NCBI GenBank assembly: GCA_016217925.1
Contig: JACRFK010000005.1
Location: 1-44,169 of the forward strand
Direction: 5' to 3'
Source: Candidatus Kaiserbacteria bacterium
Lineage (GTDB): Bacteria > Patescibacteriota > Minisyncoccia > Phycocordibacterales > UBA2100
Length of the DNA stretch: 44,169 nt
The position numbers were made by a program, and so were the translations under genes. The notes beneath the pieces are model-generated. The model made no database searches. It was not told the origin of the DNA and saw only the letters and a list, made by a program, of their open reading frames with translations. Below are positions 2,245-39,189 of this stretch, piece after piece. The stretch's first letter is position 1. Each line of letters opens with the position of its first letter.

Positions 2245-2358
2245 ATGAATCCCGTTAGAAATTTACTTATGACATCAATACAGGCACAGGGGTTGTCAGG
2301 CTTACTTTCTACCGCATATGCGGAGCAGGATTATTCAGTAAATTTCTAACGGGATGAA
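2245..2358 (+). mobile_element. MITE-like inverted-repeat element at rplB start codon with 34-aa uORF
   Basis: 19-bp perfect stem 2249-2267/2337-2355; ATGAA direct repeats 2245-2249 and 2354-2358; uORF 2245-2349 MNPVRNLLMTSIQAQGLSGLLSTAYAEQDYSVNF*. Confidence 0.7.
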
Positions 2359-4662: not shown

Positions 4663-7269
4663 ATGCTTAAAAAAATCACGTTCGCAGGTGTCGGCATCGC
4701 ATTACTCGCTTCTCCTCTTCTCGCCTCGGCCGACATGGTCTCCGACCTCCAAGCCCAGATTCAGGCCCTCATGGCGCAGGTCGCTGCTCTGCAAGGACAG
4801 TTGAACCCCGCACCTGCCACTCCCGTCGGCCCGACCGACGACTACGGGACAACTCAGACCACTCCCGCCTGCCCGAATCTTTCCGTCACCATGCAACGCG
4901 GCGCACGCGATGCCACCACAGGCGGACAGGTCATCGACCTCCAGACGTTCCTCGCCGACTACTTCAATTTGCCTGAAGAAGGACTCGTCACCGGGTACTT
5001 CGGGAAAAACACCGAAGCCGCCGTCATCCGCTTCCAGAATCAGTACAGTCTCCCCGCCTTCGGCATCGTCGGCTCGCTTACGCGGGCGAAGATTGCGGGG
5101 GTGTGTGGGGGAGGGGCGGTGCTACAGCCGGGGCCAGTATGTATCGCCGAGGCACTCCGGACAGCATGTCCCACAGGCCAGCATTATGAATCGGCAGGTC
5201 CCGATACCATCGACGCCAACGGATGCCGTCACGACAATCTGAGGTGCGTTCCAGATTCAACCTCCACCGCGACGTTCTCTGCTGCGCCAATGTCGGGCCA
5301 GGCACCGCTCAACGTCACGTTTACGATTGGCGAAGCCAAGCCGGGCGTCACGTACAATTTCAGTTACGGCGACGGCGCGACGGGATCGGCAACGTGCGTG
5401 CAGGACGGCGGCAAAGGCGATCCGAGATGTGGAGCAGCGTGGACGACTGCACATACCTACGCATCAGCTGGCACGTATACCGCGACACTCTCCAAGCAAG
5501 AGTCGTACTCCTGCCCGCCCGGTGCGTACTGTCCAATGCTATACCCGGCTCCAGTCACGGTCGGCACCGTGACGATTACGGTGACCGGCAACCCGACCCA
5601 AACTCTCGTAATTACCGATGTCCAGTATTCACCGGCGCATCCACACGTCAACGATCTCATAACGACGACAGTTACCATCATGAACAAGAGCTCGAGTGAC
5701 CGCACGACAACATTCCAGGTCAACGTGGGGGGTACAACGGTAGATGTTCCATATTTGGCGGCGGTGACCTCAAGAACGGTCATCGTGCCGAACGCCTTCA
5801 CATTCGCGGACCCTGGCCAGAAGACTCTACACACGCACCTGATAAATCCACTGGGTGGCGGGCTTGGTGGCACCATCGACACATATACGAATACACTCAC
5901 GTTCGATGCGGGTAGCAACAGCAGCGGCGTCACCATTACGGCGCCCAACGGCGGCGAGCAGTGGGAGACTGGCATCACCAATACCGTGACGTGGACGCCC
6001 TACCAGTACAATCCGGACATCAATCCTTCGAGAGACGTAACCGCCTTCTTGGAGACCAAGAACTCGGACGGATCGTTCAACATCTTCGGCAGGGTGGAAG
6101 AAAGCGGCAAGGCATCCATTCACTGGGTGACAGGCCAGCTTTATGCGGCATCACAGAGCAACAACTTTATACCGCAAGGTCCGGGCTATTACATTCGCGT
6201 TGTCAACAATGTGACCGGCGCATGGGATCGCTCTGACGCGCCGTTCACCATCTTGCCGCGATCCGTAGACGTAAAAGTCGACGGGTCTGATGGTCCGCTC
6301 ACTATCGACCCGAGTCAGAAGGTGTGGGTGGAATGGACTTCAACCAACAAAACCTCATGCACTTTGTATGGCGTGATGGATAGTCTGACCTCCACACAGA
6401 CGTACATTGGAAACCTGCCGACGAGCGGCAAGCGCGAAGTGTATGTATGGTTCTATGACCCCTCGTCCGGGACTACCATCTCGGCACAGTGCGTTGACGC
6501 GGCAGGGAATGTCGTCACTGATTGGGTCGTAATAAATCCGACGTCTCAACCAGCCGCCATTCGAATCACAAGTCCCAACGGCGGTGAGCAAATATCAATC
6601 GGGAGCGAGTATGTTGTCCGGACTTCCTACTCCGGTGTCTCGGCGGTCTCGGTGGCGCTCTACAAGAACGATCAATGGATGAAGTGGCTCTACAAGGACG
6701 TGCCGGTCTCAAGTTCGCCGCATGATTGGTACTGGACGCCGTCTACTGAAGAAGCGGCCGTAGCGTCACAGGGTAGCGTCTTCAAAATATATGCTACGGG
6801 GCAAAGGACGGACGGCACCGGATACGTCGACGACAAATCCGACGCGCCGTTCTCGTTTAGCGGAATCACAGTAAGTCCTCCGACGTGTTCCATCTCCGGA
6901 ACCCCGGGGAATGAAGTGGTTTCCGGTACGGGCGGCTACAATCTCAGCTGGGTAACAACCAATGCGTCGACGGCGAATCTGACGGGAGGCGCGATGAACC
7001 TCAACACCGGCGTTCCGGTCACGGGCAATCCGTACGGTCAGCCGACACAGATGTGGGTCTCGCAGCCCGGTACCTACACGCTCACCGTCACGGGCACTTA
7101 CGGGCTCGCACCAGGCGGGGGTCTAGTTACCGGAACCTGCAGCACAACGGTCGGTGCCGGGGTGTTGGGCGGAACTGATTCATCGTCAGGTACGAATGCA
7201 TATCTGGCGAGCGCTCTCAGCGCACTTGAATCTGCTCTCAAGGCGTTGATTTCAAAGCTGGGACAATAA
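4663..7269 (+). CDS. Secreted peptidoglycan-binding (PG_binding_1) / PKD / Ig-like surface protein
   Basis: Signal peptide MLKKITFAGVGIALLASPLLASA; IDLQTFLADYFNLPEEGLVTGYFGKNTEAAVIRFQ; PKD-like FSYGDGATG..AHTYASAGTYTATL. Confidence 0.85.
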   Translation: MLKKITFAGVGIALLASPLLASADMVSDLQAQIQALMAQVAALQGQLNPAPATPVGPTDDYGTTQTTPACPNLSVTMQRGARDATTGGQVIDLQTFLADYFNLPEEGLVTGYFGKNTEAAVIRFQNQYSLPAFGIVGSLTRAKIAGVCGGGAVLQPGPVCIAEALRTACPTGQHYESAGPDTIDANGCRHDNLRCVPDSTSTATFSAAPMSGQAPLNVTFTIGEAKPGVTYNFSYGDGATGSATCVQDGGKGDPRCGAAWTTAHTYASAGTYTATLSKQESYSCPPGAYCPMLYPAPVTVGTVTITVTGNPTQTLVITDVQYSPAHPHVNDLITTTVTIMNKSSSDRTTTFQVNVGGTTVDVPYLAAVTSRTVIVPNAFTFADPGQKTLHTHLINPLGGGLGGTIDTYTNTLTFDAGSNSSGVTITAPNGGEQWETGITNTVTWTPYQYNPDINPSRDVTAFLETKNSDGSFNIFGRVEESGKASIHWVTGQLYAASQSNNFIPQGPGYYIRVVNNVTGAWDRSDAPFTILPRSVDVKVDGSDGPLTIDPSQKVWVEWTSTNKTSCTLYGVMDSLTSTQTYIGNLPTSGKREVYVWFYDPSSGTTISAQCVDAAGNVVTDWVVINPTSQPAAIRITSPNGGEQISIGSEYVVRTSYSGVSAVSVALYKNDQWMKWLYKDVPVSSSPHDWYWTPSTEEAAVASQGSVFKIYATGQRTDGTGYVDDKSDAPFSFSGITVSPPTCSISGTPGNEVVSGTGGYNLSWVTTNASTANLTGGAMNLNTGVPVTGNPYGQPTQMWVSQPGTYTLTVTGTYGLAPGGGLVTGTCSTTVGAGVLGGTDSSSGTNAYLASALSALESALKALISKLGQ

Positions 7270-7735: not shown

Positions 7736-8161
7736 ATGAAAGCACTTCTCACCAATTATCACCAGTCACCGCGCAAGGTCCGCCTCGTCGCGGACCTCAT
7801 ACGCGGCAAGTCCGTATCCGCCGCACGCGCAGCGCTTTTGTACTTGCCCAAGAAGTCTTCTCCCGCCATCGGCAAGCTTTTGGACTCTGCTATCGCAAAC
7901 GCGAGTTCGGGCGGTGCCTCCGCGGAGAATCTTTTCGTCAAGACCATTACCGTCAACAAAGGTGCCATGATGCGCCGCGCACGACCGTTCGGCCGCGGAC
8001 GCTCGGGAACACTCCGCAAGACCATGAGCATCGTATTCCTCGAGCTTGGCGTTTCAGCAAAGAAAGCTGCGAAGGCCGCAAAGGTTGCCAAAAAGACGAC
8101 GGCAAAGAAGGCGAAAGCCACAAAACCCGCCTCCGCCAAGGCTTCAGGCGAGGCAAAATAA
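7736..8161 (+). CDS. rplV: 50S ribosomal protein L22
   Basis: SPRKVRLVADLIRGKSVSAARAALLYLPKKSS...MMRRARPFGRGR. Confidence 0.96.
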   Translation: MKALLTNYHQSPRKVRLVADLIRGKSVSAARAALLYLPKKSSPAIGKLLDSAIANASSGGASAENLFVKTITVNKGAMMRRARPFGRGRSGTLRKTMSIVFLELGVSAKKAAKAAKVAKKTTAKKAKATKPASAKASGEAK

Positions 8162-9524: not shown

Positions 9525-9818
9525 ATGGAACCAGAACTCAAACAAGGAAAAACATTCGAAGGCATCGTCGTAAAATCGGCGATGAAAGACACGGCTACGG
9601 TCCAGGTGGAACGCTACGTAAAGCACCCGAAGTACAAGAAATTCATGCGTCTCTCGAAGAAGTTTTTGGTACACGATGTCGGTAATACTGCGCAGATAGG
9701 GGAGAAAGTGACTATCCGTGAGACTCGTCCCATCTCAAAGCGTAAGCGTTTTGTACTCGTTTCCCGCGACACGCAGGTGTCCGCCGAGGGCGGATCCTCC
9801 TCCGGAGGAAAAGAATAA
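9525..9818 (+). CDS. rpsQ: 30S ribosomal protein S17
   Basis: KTFEGIVVKSAMKDTATVQVERYVKHPKYKKFMRLSKKFLVHD...GEKVTIRETRPISKRKRF. Confidence 0.96.
   Translation: MEPELKQGKTFEGIVVKSAMKDTATVQVERYVKHPKYKKFMRLSKKFLVHDVGNTAQIGEKVTIRETRPISKRKRFVLVSRDTQVSAEGGSSSGGKE
9780..9812 (+). repeat. 33-nt coding palindrome (SAEGGSSSGGK) copy 2
   Basis: TCCGCCGAGGGCGGATCCTCCTCCGGAGGAAAA at the C-terminus of S17. Confidence 0.7.
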
Positions 9819-15322: not shown

Positions 15323-16597
15323 ATGATGGAATCATTTCTTCGCAAAATAAAGCTTGTCTTCGAAGATGAGACTCTACGCACACGCATTCTCTTCATCCTC
15401 GGCGCTCTCGTCGTTTTTCGTCTTCTCGCCGCGATTCCCATTCCGGGTATTAATGCGGCGCAACTTGATTCTTTTTTGAACAGCAATCAATTCCTCGGAC
15501 TCCTCAACATCTTTTCCGGAGGTGGTTTCTCAAACCTATCGATCATGATGATCGGTGTCTCTCCGTACATCACCGCATCTATCGTGATGCAGCTCATGAC
15601 GATTCTCATTCCGCGACTGAAAGAGATGTACCAAGAAGAGGGAGATGCGGGCCGTATGCGCTTCATGCAGTACTCGCGTTACCTCTCGGTGCCTCTGGCG
15701 TTCATCCAAGGTTTCGGGTTCCTTCTTCTCCTACAGCAGAACGGTATTGTTTCGCAGCTCTCCCCGCTCGGCTTTGTCACCAATGTGGTTGTGATCGCAG
15801 CGGGCGCGATGCTCATCATGTGGATCGGTGAGCTCATTTCCGAGTTTGGTGTCGGCAACGGCATCTCGCTTATCATCTTCGCCGGTATCGTTGCTGGTTT
15901 ACCATCCTCTCTCGCACAACTGATCTTCAGTTTCGACGTCTCGCAGGTCCCTGTCTATCTCGGATTTACCATCGCTGCCGCGGTCATCATCGCGGGAGTC
16001 GTCTACATCACCGAAGCAGAGCGCCCGATCCCGGTCACGTATGCGCGGCGCGTACGAGGGACAAAGGTCCTCGGCGGCATCTCTACGTATTTACCCCTGC
16101 GCGTGAATCAAGCGGGTGTCATTCCGATTATTTTTGCGCTCTCCATTCTTCTCTTTCCGCAGATGATCGCCACATTCCTCGCACAGAGCGCCATTCCGTT
16201 CATCGCATCAGGCGCTTCGGCGGTCGTTGCGGCACTTGCCAATCAATGGGTCTACGGCGCGCTCTATTTCTTTTTGGTCGTCGTCTTCACATACTTCTAC
16301 ACTGCTATCACGTTTGAGCCGAACCAGATCGCAAAAAACCTCCAGAAGAACGGCGCCTTCATTCCGGGTGTACGTCCGGGAGGCACGACGAGCGAGTACC
16401 TCGGCAACATCATCACCCGCATCACCCTCGTCGGCGCGCTTTTCCTCGGAGTGCTTGCGGTCTTGCCGATAGTCCTACAAGGGATTACCGGCATCACCGT
16501 AATAACCATCGGCGGTACCGCCCTTCTCATCGTCGTCTCCGTTGTGCTTGACCTGGTGAAAAAGATTGACGCACAGACCTCCATACGGGAGTATTAG
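15323..16597 (+). CDS. secY: Preprotein translocase subunit SecY
   Basis: Polytopic; RLLAAIPIPGIN...GVSPYITASIVMQL...GNGISLIIFAGIV. Confidence 0.97.
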   Translation: MMESFLRKIKLVFEDETLRTRILFILGALVVFRLLAAIPIPGINAAQLDSFLNSNQFLGLLNIFSGGGFSNLSIMMIGVSPYITASIVMQLMTILIPRLKEMYQEEGDAGRMRFMQYSRYLSVPLAFIQGFGFLLLLQQNGIVSQLSPLGFVTNVVVIAAGAMLIMWIGELISEFGVGNGISLIIFAGIVAGLPSSLAQLIFSFDVSQVPVYLGFTIAAAVIIAGVVYITEAERPIPVTYARRVRGTKVLGGISTYLPLRVNQAGVIPIIFALSILLFPQMIATFLAQSAIPFIASGASAVVAALANQWVYGALYFFLVVVFTYFYTAITFEPNQIAKNLQKNGAFIPGVRPGGTTSEYLGNIITRITLVGALFLGVLAVLPIVLQGITGITVITIGGTALLIVVSVVLDLVKKIDAQTSIREY

Positions 16598-16600
16598 CGG

Positions 16601-16723
16601 ATGAATCCCGTTAGAAATAGCGGACTGTCACTCATTTCCTCACACATGGTCGTTTTTATCACTCATAACAAAATAGGGCGTGTACCCAGTATCCGGTCCG
16701 CGTCCTATTTCTAACGGGATGAA
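16601..16723 (+). mobile_element. MITE-like inverted-repeat element at cmk-like start codon with 37-aa uORF
   Basis: 16-bp stem 16605-16620/16705-16720; ATGAA direct repeats 16601-16605 and 16719-16723; uORF 16601-16714 MNPVRNSGLSLISSHMVVFITHNKIGRVPSIRSASYF*. Confidence 0.7.
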
Positions 16724-17282
16724 AAAAGAGTTGATAACCATCGCAGGTTCGCTCGGATCGGGAAAATCTTCAACCGCGAAAGAAGTTGCGCGCGCTCTCG
16801 GCTATCGGCACTTTTCTTCAGGCGACCTTTTTCGTCAAATAGCGGCGCAGCGCGGAGAATCCGTCGAAGCGACGAATATCTCCGCGGAAGCAAAGCGGGA
16901 TATTGATTACCAAGTCGATGAATTGCTCCAGCAAATGGGGAAGACGGAAAATAAGCTCGTCATCGATTCGCGCATGGCATGGCACTGGATGCCGGGTTCT
17001 TTCAAAGTGTTTCTTAGCGTTGACCTCGATTCGGCTGCGCAGCGTATTTTCCAGGATGTGCTCACAAAAAGTCGTGTGAGCGAACACGCCGAATCGGTAG
17101 AAGATGTGCGGGCGAGCATCGAGCGAAGGTTCGCGAGCGAGCAAAAACGATACTTCTCTCTATACGGCGTGAATCCAACTGATCCGAAAAATTTTGATCT
17201 CGTCATTGATACCAAGGACAACAGCCTAAGCGGGGTCACTGATATCGTTCTGGAAAAATACAAGGAATGGCGTAATAGCTAG
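16719..17282 (+). CDS. Cytidylate kinase-like nucleotide kinase
   Basis: MKKELITIAGSLGSGKSSTAKEVARALGYRHFSSGDLFRQIAAQRG (P-loop). Confidence 0.8.
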   Translation: MKKELITIAGSLGSGKSSTAKEVARALGYRHFSSGDLFRQIAAQRGESVEATNISAEAKRDIDYQVDELLQQMGKTENKLVIDSRMAWHWMPGSFKVFLSVDLDSAAQRIFQDVLTKSRVSEHAESVEDVRASIERRFASEQKRYFSLYGVNPTDPKNFDLVIDTKDNSLSGVTDIVLEKYKEWRNS

Positions 17283-28983: not shown

Positions 28984-29604
28984 TTATTCCGCTTGGGGAG
29001 GAGGGGGTTGCTGAAGAACTGCCTTTTCCTGCCTGGGTTGCTTCTGCTGTTGCGGTTTCTTGGACGGGTCGCGCTCAAGGGTGATGGAGAGCCCTTTAGG
29101 GCCCTTTTGGATAGGTTCGGCGACCTTGAAACCCTCCGGAATGACCGCAAGGAATCGTTCGAGGCGCTCTTTGAGGAACTCGAATTCCATGTATTTGTAG
29201 CGTCCCCACAAAAAGAGGTCCACCTTTACGCGGTGGCCTTCTTTGAGCCACTCGGCGGCCTTGCCGGCCTTGATTTGCATGTCGCGCTCCGAGGTGCCGA
29301 TCTTCACCTGCGTTATCTTGGTCTCCGTCACATGCGCTTTGGATTTTATCTCCTTGTCTTTTTTCTTTTGCTCGTATTTGAATTTACCGTAGTCGGTAAT
29401 TTTGCACACTGGCGGCTGCGCGTTGGGTGATACTTCGATGAGGTCGAGTCCGAGCTCAGCCGCCTTTGCGAGTGCCTCGCGGATAGGAAGGACGCCGAAA
29501 TTCTCGGCATTGGGGCCGATGACGCGCACTTCAGGGGCCCTGATGCCCTCATTCATGCGCGCGCGCTCTTTTTCAGCCTGCGATGTGTATTTGGTGAATC
29601 CCAT
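28984..29604 (-). CDS. infC: Translation initiation factor IF-3
   Basis: IRAPEVRVIGPNAENFGVLPIREALAKAAELGLDLIEVSPNAQPPVCKITDYGKFKYEQKKK. Confidence 0.97.
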   Translation of the reverse strand: MGFTKYTSQAEKERARMNEGIRAPEVRVIGPNAENFGVLPIREALAKAAELGLDLIEVSPNAQPPVCKITDYGKFKYEQKKKDKEIKSKAHVTETKITQVKIGTSERDMQIKAGKAAEWLKEGHRVKVDLFLWGRYKYMEFEFLKERLERFLAVIPEGFKVAEPIQKGPKGLSITLERDPSKKPQQQKQPRQEKAVLQQPPPPQAE

Positions 29605-29727
29605 CCCGTTAGAGGCAGGAAGCTTGCGCTTCCGCGGCGAATTTTGATGTTGTTACAAATTTCATTTTTTAAATGACGTCACCGTATGGTACCACGACGA
29701 ACTTCCGTAGCCTCTAACGGGACCCAT
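29600..29727 (-). mobile_element. MITE-like inverted-repeat element at infC start codon with two overlapping uORFs
   Basis: 13-bp stem 29604-29616/29710-29722; ATGGG direct repeats (minus) at 29727-29723 and 29604-29600; uORFs 29662-29727 MGPVRGYGSSSWYHTVTSFKK* and 29609-29665 MKFVTTSKFAAEAQASCL*, ATGA overlap. Confidence 0.7.
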
Positions 29728-37983: not shown

Positions 37984-39189
37984 ATGGCAAAAAAGGATGT
38001 CTCATCCGCCAAAGGCGGACCCCCCTCCGGCGGGAAACTTGCTCAAACAGCTCTCGCACTCCACAAAAAGCTCGGCGGCAAAATCCGTATCATGCCCGCG
38101 GCACCTGTGCGCAACCGTGCTGACCTCTCCCTCGTCTACACACCCGGTGTCGCGGCGGTCTCTTCGTACGTTGCGAAATATCCGCAGGAAGCCCGCGACT
38201 ACACGATAAAAGGTCGCATGGTCGCCGTTATCTCCGACGGCTCCGCCGTGCTTGGTCTCGGCAATATCGGTGCCCTGGGCGCCTTGCCGGTCATGGAAGG
38301 GAAGTGTGCGCTTTTCAAGACGTTTGCCGGAGTTGATGCGTTTCCCATCGTCCTCGACACTACTCCGCTAAAGCTTCGAAGTGCAAGCACACAGGAGGAA
38401 ATAGATTTTATCGTTCAAACAGTTATCGCCATTGCCCCCGCGTTCGGCGGCATCAATCTTGAAGACATCGGCGCACCGAAGTGTTTTGAAATAGAAAAAC
38501 GCATCTCTGATGCACTCGACATCCCGGTCATGCACGACGACCAGCACGGCACCGCTATCGTCGTCTTGGCGGGTATGATAAATGCGCTCAAAGTCGTCGG
38601 CAAGAAAATGTCTTCGGCGAAGTTCGTAATCCTCGGCGCGGGGGCCGCGGGGACGGCGACCGCAAAGCTTCTGCATGTCGCGGGAGCAAAAAACATCGTC
38701 GTGCTCGATAGTAAAGGCATCGTTGACTCCAAACGCCCCGAGCCGCACAAACGCGAGCTTGCAAAATTCAATACGAGAAACGTGAGAGGAGGATTGCGCG
38801 AGGCACTCACCGGTGCCGACGTCTTGCTCGGCGTTTCTGGTCCCAATCTGGTGAAAGCGGAAGATATCCGGCTCATGGCGAAGAAGGCGATAGTCTTCGC
38901 GATGGCGAATCCGACACCTGAGATCATGCCGGACGAGGCGAAGCGAGGGGGAGCGATGGTCGTCGGTACCGGCCGCTCGGATTTCCCGAACCAGATAAAT
39001 AATTCGCTCGCATTTCCCGGCATTTTCCGCGGTGCGCTCGACCACGGCGTAACGAAAATTACCGATGAGATGAAAGTGAAAGCGGCAAAAGCGATAGCCG
39101 CACTCGTCAAAAAGCCGACCGCCAACTACGTCATTCCAGACATGTTCGACAGACGCGCTCCTCTCGCGGTCGCCAAAGTGATACGCTGA
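37984..39189 (+). CDS. NAD-dependent malic enzyme
   Basis: ADLSLVYTPGVAAVS...AVISDGSAVLGLGNIGALGALPVMEGKCALFKTFAGVDAFPI...VMHDDQHGTAIVVLAG. Confidence 0.93.
   Translation: MAKKDVSSAKGGPPSGGKLAQTALALHKKLGGKIRIMPAAPVRNRADLSLVYTPGVAAVSSYVAKYPQEARDYTIKGRMVAVISDGSAVLGLGNIGALGALPVMEGKCALFKTFAGVDAFPIVLDTTPLKLRSASTQEEIDFIVQTVIAIAPAFGGINLEDIGAPKCFEIEKRISDALDIPVMHDDQHGTAIVVLAGMINALKVVGKKMSSAKFVILGAGAAGTATAKLLHVAGAKNIVVLDSKGIVDSKRPEPHKRELAKFNTRNVRGGLREALTGADVLLGVSGPNLVKAEDIRLMAKKAIVFAMANPTPEIMPDEAKRGGAMVVGTGRSDFPNQINNSLAFPGIFRGALDHGVTKITDEMKVKAAKAIAALVKKPTANYVIPDMFDRRAPLAVAKVIR
38005..38037 (+). repeat. 33-nt coding palindrome (SAKGGPPSGGK) copy 3
   Basis: TCCGCCAAAGGCGGACCCCCCTCCGGCGGGAAA in N-terminus of malic enzyme. 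Confidence 0.7.

Follow-up and report, generated by a model that had tools for sequence, protein, structure and literature searches.

A probable MITE-like insertion that rebuilds the start codon at a secY–kinase junction in Candidatus Kaiserbacteria, with a candidate GIY-YIG nuclease-coding partner

Between secY and the cytidylate-kinase-like gene that follows it in a Candidatus Kaiserbacteria genome lies a hairpin-forming sequence bounded on both sides by the same few nucleotides, which a first-pass annotation had described as a mobile or structural module. The locus raises the question of what this sequence is, where it came from, and how the kinase gene behind it can still be read. We examined it within the window, the whole 44,169-nt stretch of DNA analyzed here, which opens contig 3 of a genome of 980,822 bp, and then across related genomes.

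The secY gene (15323–16597, plus strand; Pfam SecY, E = 2.7e-101) ends in TAG, which is followed by CGG and, from 16601, by ATGAAT. The junction can be read as an insertion, A / TGAA / T-CCCGTTAGAAATAG ... CTATTTCTAACGGG-A / TGAA, in which an element TCCCGTTAGAAATAG…CTATTTCTAACGGGA on the plus strand at 16606–16719 (114 bp with the terminal T/A pair counted) is flanked by 4-bp direct repeats TGAA at 16602–16605 and 16720–16723. The left terminal inverted repeat, TCCCGTTAGAAATAG, occupies 16606–16620 on the plus strand; its partner, CTATTTCTAACGGGA, occupies 16705–16719 on the minus strand and supplies both the TAA stop of an upstream open reading frame (uORF) and the A that opens the kinase start codon. 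The two ends form a perfectly paired 16-bp stem (ATCCCGTTAGAAATAG/CTATTTCTAACGGGAT), the hairpin is strong (z = −3.0), and the element matches no Rfam model. The start codon of the kinase gene (16719–17282, plus strand; Pfam Cytidylate_kin2, E = 3.5e-17) is split by the element between A and TGAA, and the final A of the element restores the ATG. The uORF (16601–16714, plus strand; MNPVRNSGL...SASYF, 37 aa) begins at the old start codon and crosses the element, and it has the same length and frame in the closest relative, G050. The first-pass annotation had the ATGAA-bounded feature at 16601–16723 and its 16-bp stem correct to the base, and its placement of the uORF, which begins 3 nt past the secY stop and leaves a gap of 4 nt to the kinase ATG at 16719, agrees with ours. 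It had also matched the termini to those of a copy at rplB, where we find identical ends at 2250–2354. A TGAA repeat next to a paired terminal T/A describes the junction better than an ATGAA repeat next to an unpaired T, because other copies carry C/G in place of T/A and keep a 4-bp repeat.

Comparison of the region downstream of secY among relatives, which the annotation had proposed as a check, found the site empty in six (G059, G044, G048, G051, G056 and G036), with the secY stop, a spacer of 3–4 nt and the kinase ATG, and occupied in G050. No other genome of the genus with a readable rplB junction has the copy at rplB. This includes G050, in which the junction reads TAAACAT-ATGAAAACATACAAACCC as against TAAACGT-[element]-ATGAAAACATACAAACCC here, and the absence indicates that the copy is recent. 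At one further start codon, this genome (L041) and G050 (L324) carry two different elements, their interiors being 46% identical, which is the background level; such double occupancy is as expected of a recurrent target or of replacement.

Within the window, the rplB copy (2250–2354, plus strand) lies in the start codon of rplB between TGAA repeats at 2246–2249 and 2355–2358 and carries a uORF at 2245–2349, and a third copy (29604–29722, minus strand) splits the start codon of the ORF at 28984–29604, also on the minus strand, with the target-site duplication CCCA/TGGG at 29600–29603 and 29723–29726. The 0.98-Mb genome as a whole holds 43 dispersed inverted-repeat pairs of this family. The outermost base pair is complementary in all 43 (T/A in 14, C/G in 29); a perfect 4-bp target-site duplication flanks 32 pairs, with about 0.2 expected by chance, and 11 copies have no perfect duplication. 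TNNA is the prevailing form of the duplicated 4-mer when all data sets are taken together. One copy is nested inside another (L037). The terminal motif CCCGTTAGA occurs 50 times on each strand of the genome, compared with 5 and 4 for a reversed control, and the gapped pair CCCGTTAGA-N60..90-TCTAACGGG occurs 22 times, whereas the reversed gapped pair was found neither in this genome nor in 292 other genomes of the class; counts that so far exceed the control argue that the shared ends are not due to chance. Three features place the family among MITEs and insertion-sequence derivatives: terminal inverted repeats common to dispersed loci, a constant duplication length, and relatives in which the site is empty. 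The target-site duplications, the empty sites, the nested copy and the roughly 43 dispersed copies bear out the mobile side of the annotation's 'mobile or structural module'. There are also hairpins of 27–30 bp that consist almost solely of the two ends (CCCGTTAGAGGCGAYGCCTCTAACGGG) or have one end decayed (CCCATTAGA), at L012:1564–1590, L017:1588–1614, L010, L028 and L043; these are possibly minimal or dead copies.

Most copies sit at start codons. In about 31 of the 43 the right end forms the ATG or GTG that opens an ORF of at least 90 codons, and the cut always lies between the A and the TG. A rough null derived from the window, which counts TNNA sites in non-coding DNA together with ATG starts, predicts such placement for ~9% (about 4 copies; P about 3e-23). 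This bias may in part reflect selection against insertions elsewhere, which must contribute, and targeting is not separable from selection. At the level of sequence, both the mobility of the family and its insertion into start codons are established. By eye, many target start codons are preceded by leaderless −10 boxes, and sites other than starts show −35 or extended −10 boxes; the position profile shows A at −11 as its sole standout, and for this reason we do not claim promoter recognition. Copies away from start codons often sit, again by eye only, on promoter-like boxes rebuilt by the duplication (TTGAC 16–17 nt before a TATACT-like box, or TGATATAAT), as at L006, L008, L011, L020, L243, L023:1535–1611, L036:1909–1986 and L242.

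What the element carries between its ends appears to matter less than that it can be crossed. In the orthologous secY–kinase copies of the two closest genomes, identity is 100% in each 20-nt arm and ~88% in the flanks, whereas in the interior it is ~65% when gapped. Among the orthologous copies compared between G000 and G050, the arms are mostly identical and the interiors reach 65% (secY–kinase), 70%, 72% and 94%, against a baseline of 47–57% for paralogues and an average of 46% for shuffles. This agrees with the annotation's view that the uORF is not a conserved peptide; the interior is not conserved as ordinary coding sequence, and the start of the kinase gene, which might have mapped elsewhere, is itself conserved. 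The uORF is nevertheless not noise: among 43 start-codon copies tested in this genome and its genus, the frame is open in 25, compared with 12.4 in shuffles (P = 4.5e-5). We read the open frames as selection for ribosomes crossing the element, not for a particular peptide. Three outcomes are seen, namely a TAA 4 nt ahead of the new start, an in-frame fusion (…PISNGM…), and a stop that overlaps the start; the first, found at both secY–kinase and rplB, is the commonest. Because the frame is closed in the other 18 tested copies, translational coupling is not general.

Nuclease-coding relatives change what the secY–kinase element is. On contig 8 of the same genome, a 275-bp member (L045:1526–1800) is filled end to end by a 94-aa GIY-YIG ORF (Pfam GIY-YIG, E = 2e-15) that begins at a host ATG (MIPVRD...) and finishes (...GFLSLTG) inside the right repeat. 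With CCCGTTAGA-type ends, up to one mismatch and a spacing of 274–281 bp, we counted 41 distinct elements of this type across the class, the L045 member and 40 homologues. Each consists of the terminal repeats and a single GIY-YIG ORF of 86–95 aa, nothing else, and the ORF usually borrows its ATG from the host gene and terminates within the right repeat. The terminal pair is complementary in 41/41, a target-site duplication is present in 24/41, and a start codon with a downstream ORF of at least 60 codons lies at the right end in 30/41. Read inward, the right arm of the secY–kinase copy at 16.6 kb is CCCGTTAGAAATAGGA; it agrees at 15 of 16 positions, in the same orientation, with the right end of the L045 nuclease element (CCCGTTAGAGATAGGA). 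A profile built from five of the proteins finds relatives in 147 of the 293 genomes of the class (E ≤ 1e-20), and short elements occur in 34 of 44 genomes with a strong nuclease match and in 61 of the 249 others (Fisher p = 3.5e-11, with phylogeny ignored).

The Pfam domain and the conserved Y, Y-x-G, R and E assign the protein to the GIY-YIG superfamily. Ten residues are invariant in 37 diverse nucleases, among them Y11, Y13, Y24, G26, R34 and E70, and since these include the GIY-YIG tyrosines, the Tyr-x-Gly, the Arg and the Glu, the nuclease appears to be maintained in an active form. The predicted structure reaches a pLDDT of 89.9 with 37 sequences (64.5, poor, with 5); the modeled fold is closest to the UPF0213 protein 1zg2 and to SLX1, and profile matches to the PDB rank UPF0213 1zg2 first (E = 4.6e-12), followed by SLX1 and I-TevI. 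SLX1 is a nuclease of branched DNA, and the predicted likeness to it is suggestive given that the ends of the element are able to form a hairpin or cruciform. A scan of viral contigs found no relatives of the nuclease, and PADLOC gave no match, leaving an anti-phage defense role without support. A second family of GIY-YIG ORFs is associated with other inverted repeats (CCC[C/G]CACAC...; L060/L272, L057, L089/L274 and L095), some of them with short direct repeats TGTG, GATAA or TATG, suggesting that a nuclease with terminal repeats is a general design.

We conclude, with a probability of roughly 0.7, that the secY–kinase feature is a non-autonomous, MITE-like copy derived from an insertion element that carries a GIY-YIG gene and restores the start codons it enters, and that the kinase would be read by coupling to the uORF. 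The element inserts inside a start codon, after its A and ahead of its TG, the 4 bp TGNN (here TGAA) are duplicated, and the terminal T/A or C/G pair turns the new right junction into ATG or GTG. The nuclease, expressed from the invaded gene, may make 4-nt staggered cuts at TNNA sites that resemble start codons, or process the folded ends, and repair of the resulting gap would leave the duplication. It is likely, judging from the shared ends and the co-occurrence of the two forms, that the nuclease mobilizes its own element and, in trans, the short copies; we know of no GIY-YIG enzymes that give insertions with target-site duplications. The upstream signals and old ATG of the gene would then drive a short uORF across the element to the TAA of the right terminal repeat; with 4 nt separating this stop from the rebuilt start, ribosomes could pass to the downstream gene by re-initiation, and the invaded gene would stay alive.

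The chief alternative is an ordinary MITE moved in trans by an unrelated DDE transposase, with the GIY-YIG ORF either picked up as a passenger or arriving in the element as a homing gene in its own right. Terminal inverted repeats with a 4-bp duplication are typical of DDE insertion sequences, and several draft genomes that have short elements, such as G050 and G038, give no match to the nuclease profile. We nevertheless consider this unlikely: DDE_Tnp_1, the single DDE family searched, is missing from this genome, which also has no longer element with the same ends (unpaired ends resembled decayed short copies), and the nuclease elements keep their ends, their length of 274–281 bp and their start-codon target in dozens of families, unlike a passenger. 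Far less probable still is a REP/REPIN-like palindrome moved by a Y1 (HUH) RAYT transposase. It would account for short palindromic copies at many loci, and this genome has four Y1_Tnp matches, as 47 of the 53 genomes of the genus have matches; however, HUH transposition leaves no target-site duplication, whereas 32 of the 43 copies here have one, the Y1 places listed for this genome adjoin no copy, Y1 and element counts are uncorrelated (rho = 0.10, p = 0.47), and G055 and G060 have copies without a Y1 match. A non-mobile regulatory leader that evolved in place, an attenuator-like hairpin with a leader peptide, would suit the strong hairpin, the uORF open above chance, the perfectly kept arms of orthologous copies and the location in a ribosomal protein operon, but it is excluded for practical purposes by the empty sites in close relatives, and the same ends with duplications at ~43 unrelated genes and the lack of an Rfam match also speak against it. 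A role may still have been acquired after insertion. A homing endonuclease element, with one cognate site and homologous alleles, was ruled out by the dispersal over unrelated genes with 4-bp duplications.

Like bacterial MITEs, the start-codon-rebuilding element is short, has terminal inverted repeats and a short duplication, is present in many copies and is apparently mobilized in trans; unlike them, it inserts base-exactly in start codons, rebuilding ATG or GTG, and its full-length partner encodes a GIY-YIG nuclease in place of a transposase. Rickettsia palindromic elements are likewise small palindromes able to continue a gene's reading frame, but here the site is a start codon with a duplication, and we know of no nuclease-coding partner for the Rickettsia elements. 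REPIN/RAYT and IS200/IS605 (HUH) systems share the multi-copy short palindromic repeats, yet lack target-site duplications, and the copies here lack a linked Y1 transposase. Homing endonucleases such as I-TevI, and the UPF0213 and SLX1 nucleases, share the GIY-YIG domain but are free-standing, intron-borne or cellular repair enzymes, whereas the ORF here fills an element with terminal repeats and duplications that is spread over many sites. In the excerpted text of a study of CPR rRNA genes, insertions include GIY-YIG ORFs independent of group I or II introns, and many others, shorter than 200 bp, lack an ORF and are of unknown nature (PMC11270868). These share with our elements a Patescibacteria host and GIY-YIG or short ORF-less insertions; the excerpts, however, report no ends, target-site duplications or start-codon insertion (PMC11270868).

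Searches of PMC open-access text found no published description of the element family, nor of an insertion sequence driven by a GIY-YIG nuclease. Taken simply as a MITE, the element represents a new family of a familiar type; the GIY-YIG partner makes it a new variant at the least, and proof of the enzyme's role would make it a new class. We regard as somewhat better than an even chance the wider proposal that these are a new class of mobile DNA: ~280-bp, single-gene elements whose GIY-YIG nuclease would be the transposition enzyme, which make 4-bp duplications inside start codons, borrow host start signals and return the ribosome through a stop in the terminal repeat, parasitize essential operons without inactivating them, and spawn MITEs like the 16.6-kb copy. 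If the nuclease is the mobility enzyme, this would be an element with terminal repeats and duplications outside all known transposase classes and among the smallest possible autonomous elements, with one ORF of ~90 codons and a borrowed start codon. The family would also be the source of recurrent 'NPVRN...' N-terminal and 'ISNG' or 'SLTG' junction peptides in Patescibacteria gene models, which are likely artefacts of gene-start annotation, and may shed light on the insertions in CPR rRNA genes, both short and GIY-YIG, that have been left unclassified. It offers a test case of a parasite persisting in essential operons (rplB, secY–kinase) of a streamlined genome.

A broad scan of named genomes (264 Gb), for which ~100 chance matches to the 18-base gapped pattern are predicted, found target-site duplications in 67 of 127 pairs among the matches listed, which indicates that many of these are real; on counts alone we do not claim occurrence outside Patescibacteria. 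In Jorgensenbacteria and Omnitrophota, pilin-like genes carry in-frame copies placed precisely on the prepilin peptidase motif (GFTPLE...SLTGFTLIE/FTLVE), with the cleavage site duplicated and rebuilt by the element end (L116:6122–6199, L116:3027–3104, L134 at minus-strand coordinates 7782–7862, and L154:6335–6424 and 6919–7020). These are seen to follow the logic of the start-codon copies, the mature N-terminus being rebuilt by the preceding element's own end. Elsewhere the interior is a complete tRNA gene (L226:96–185, with tRNA-Thr UGU at 103–176; L238:1501–1608, with tRNA-Ala CGC at 1519–1590), and tRNA-like interiors are listed also for G087, G118, G188, G189 and G227. The window further contains a different 33-bp dispersed repeat with internal palindromes (GTCCGCC...GGCGGATCCTCCTCCGGAGGAAA) at 1868–1900, 9779–9811 and 38004–38036, and, at 1051–1153, AT-rich inverted and direct repeats with 35-nt arms that are 80% complementary.
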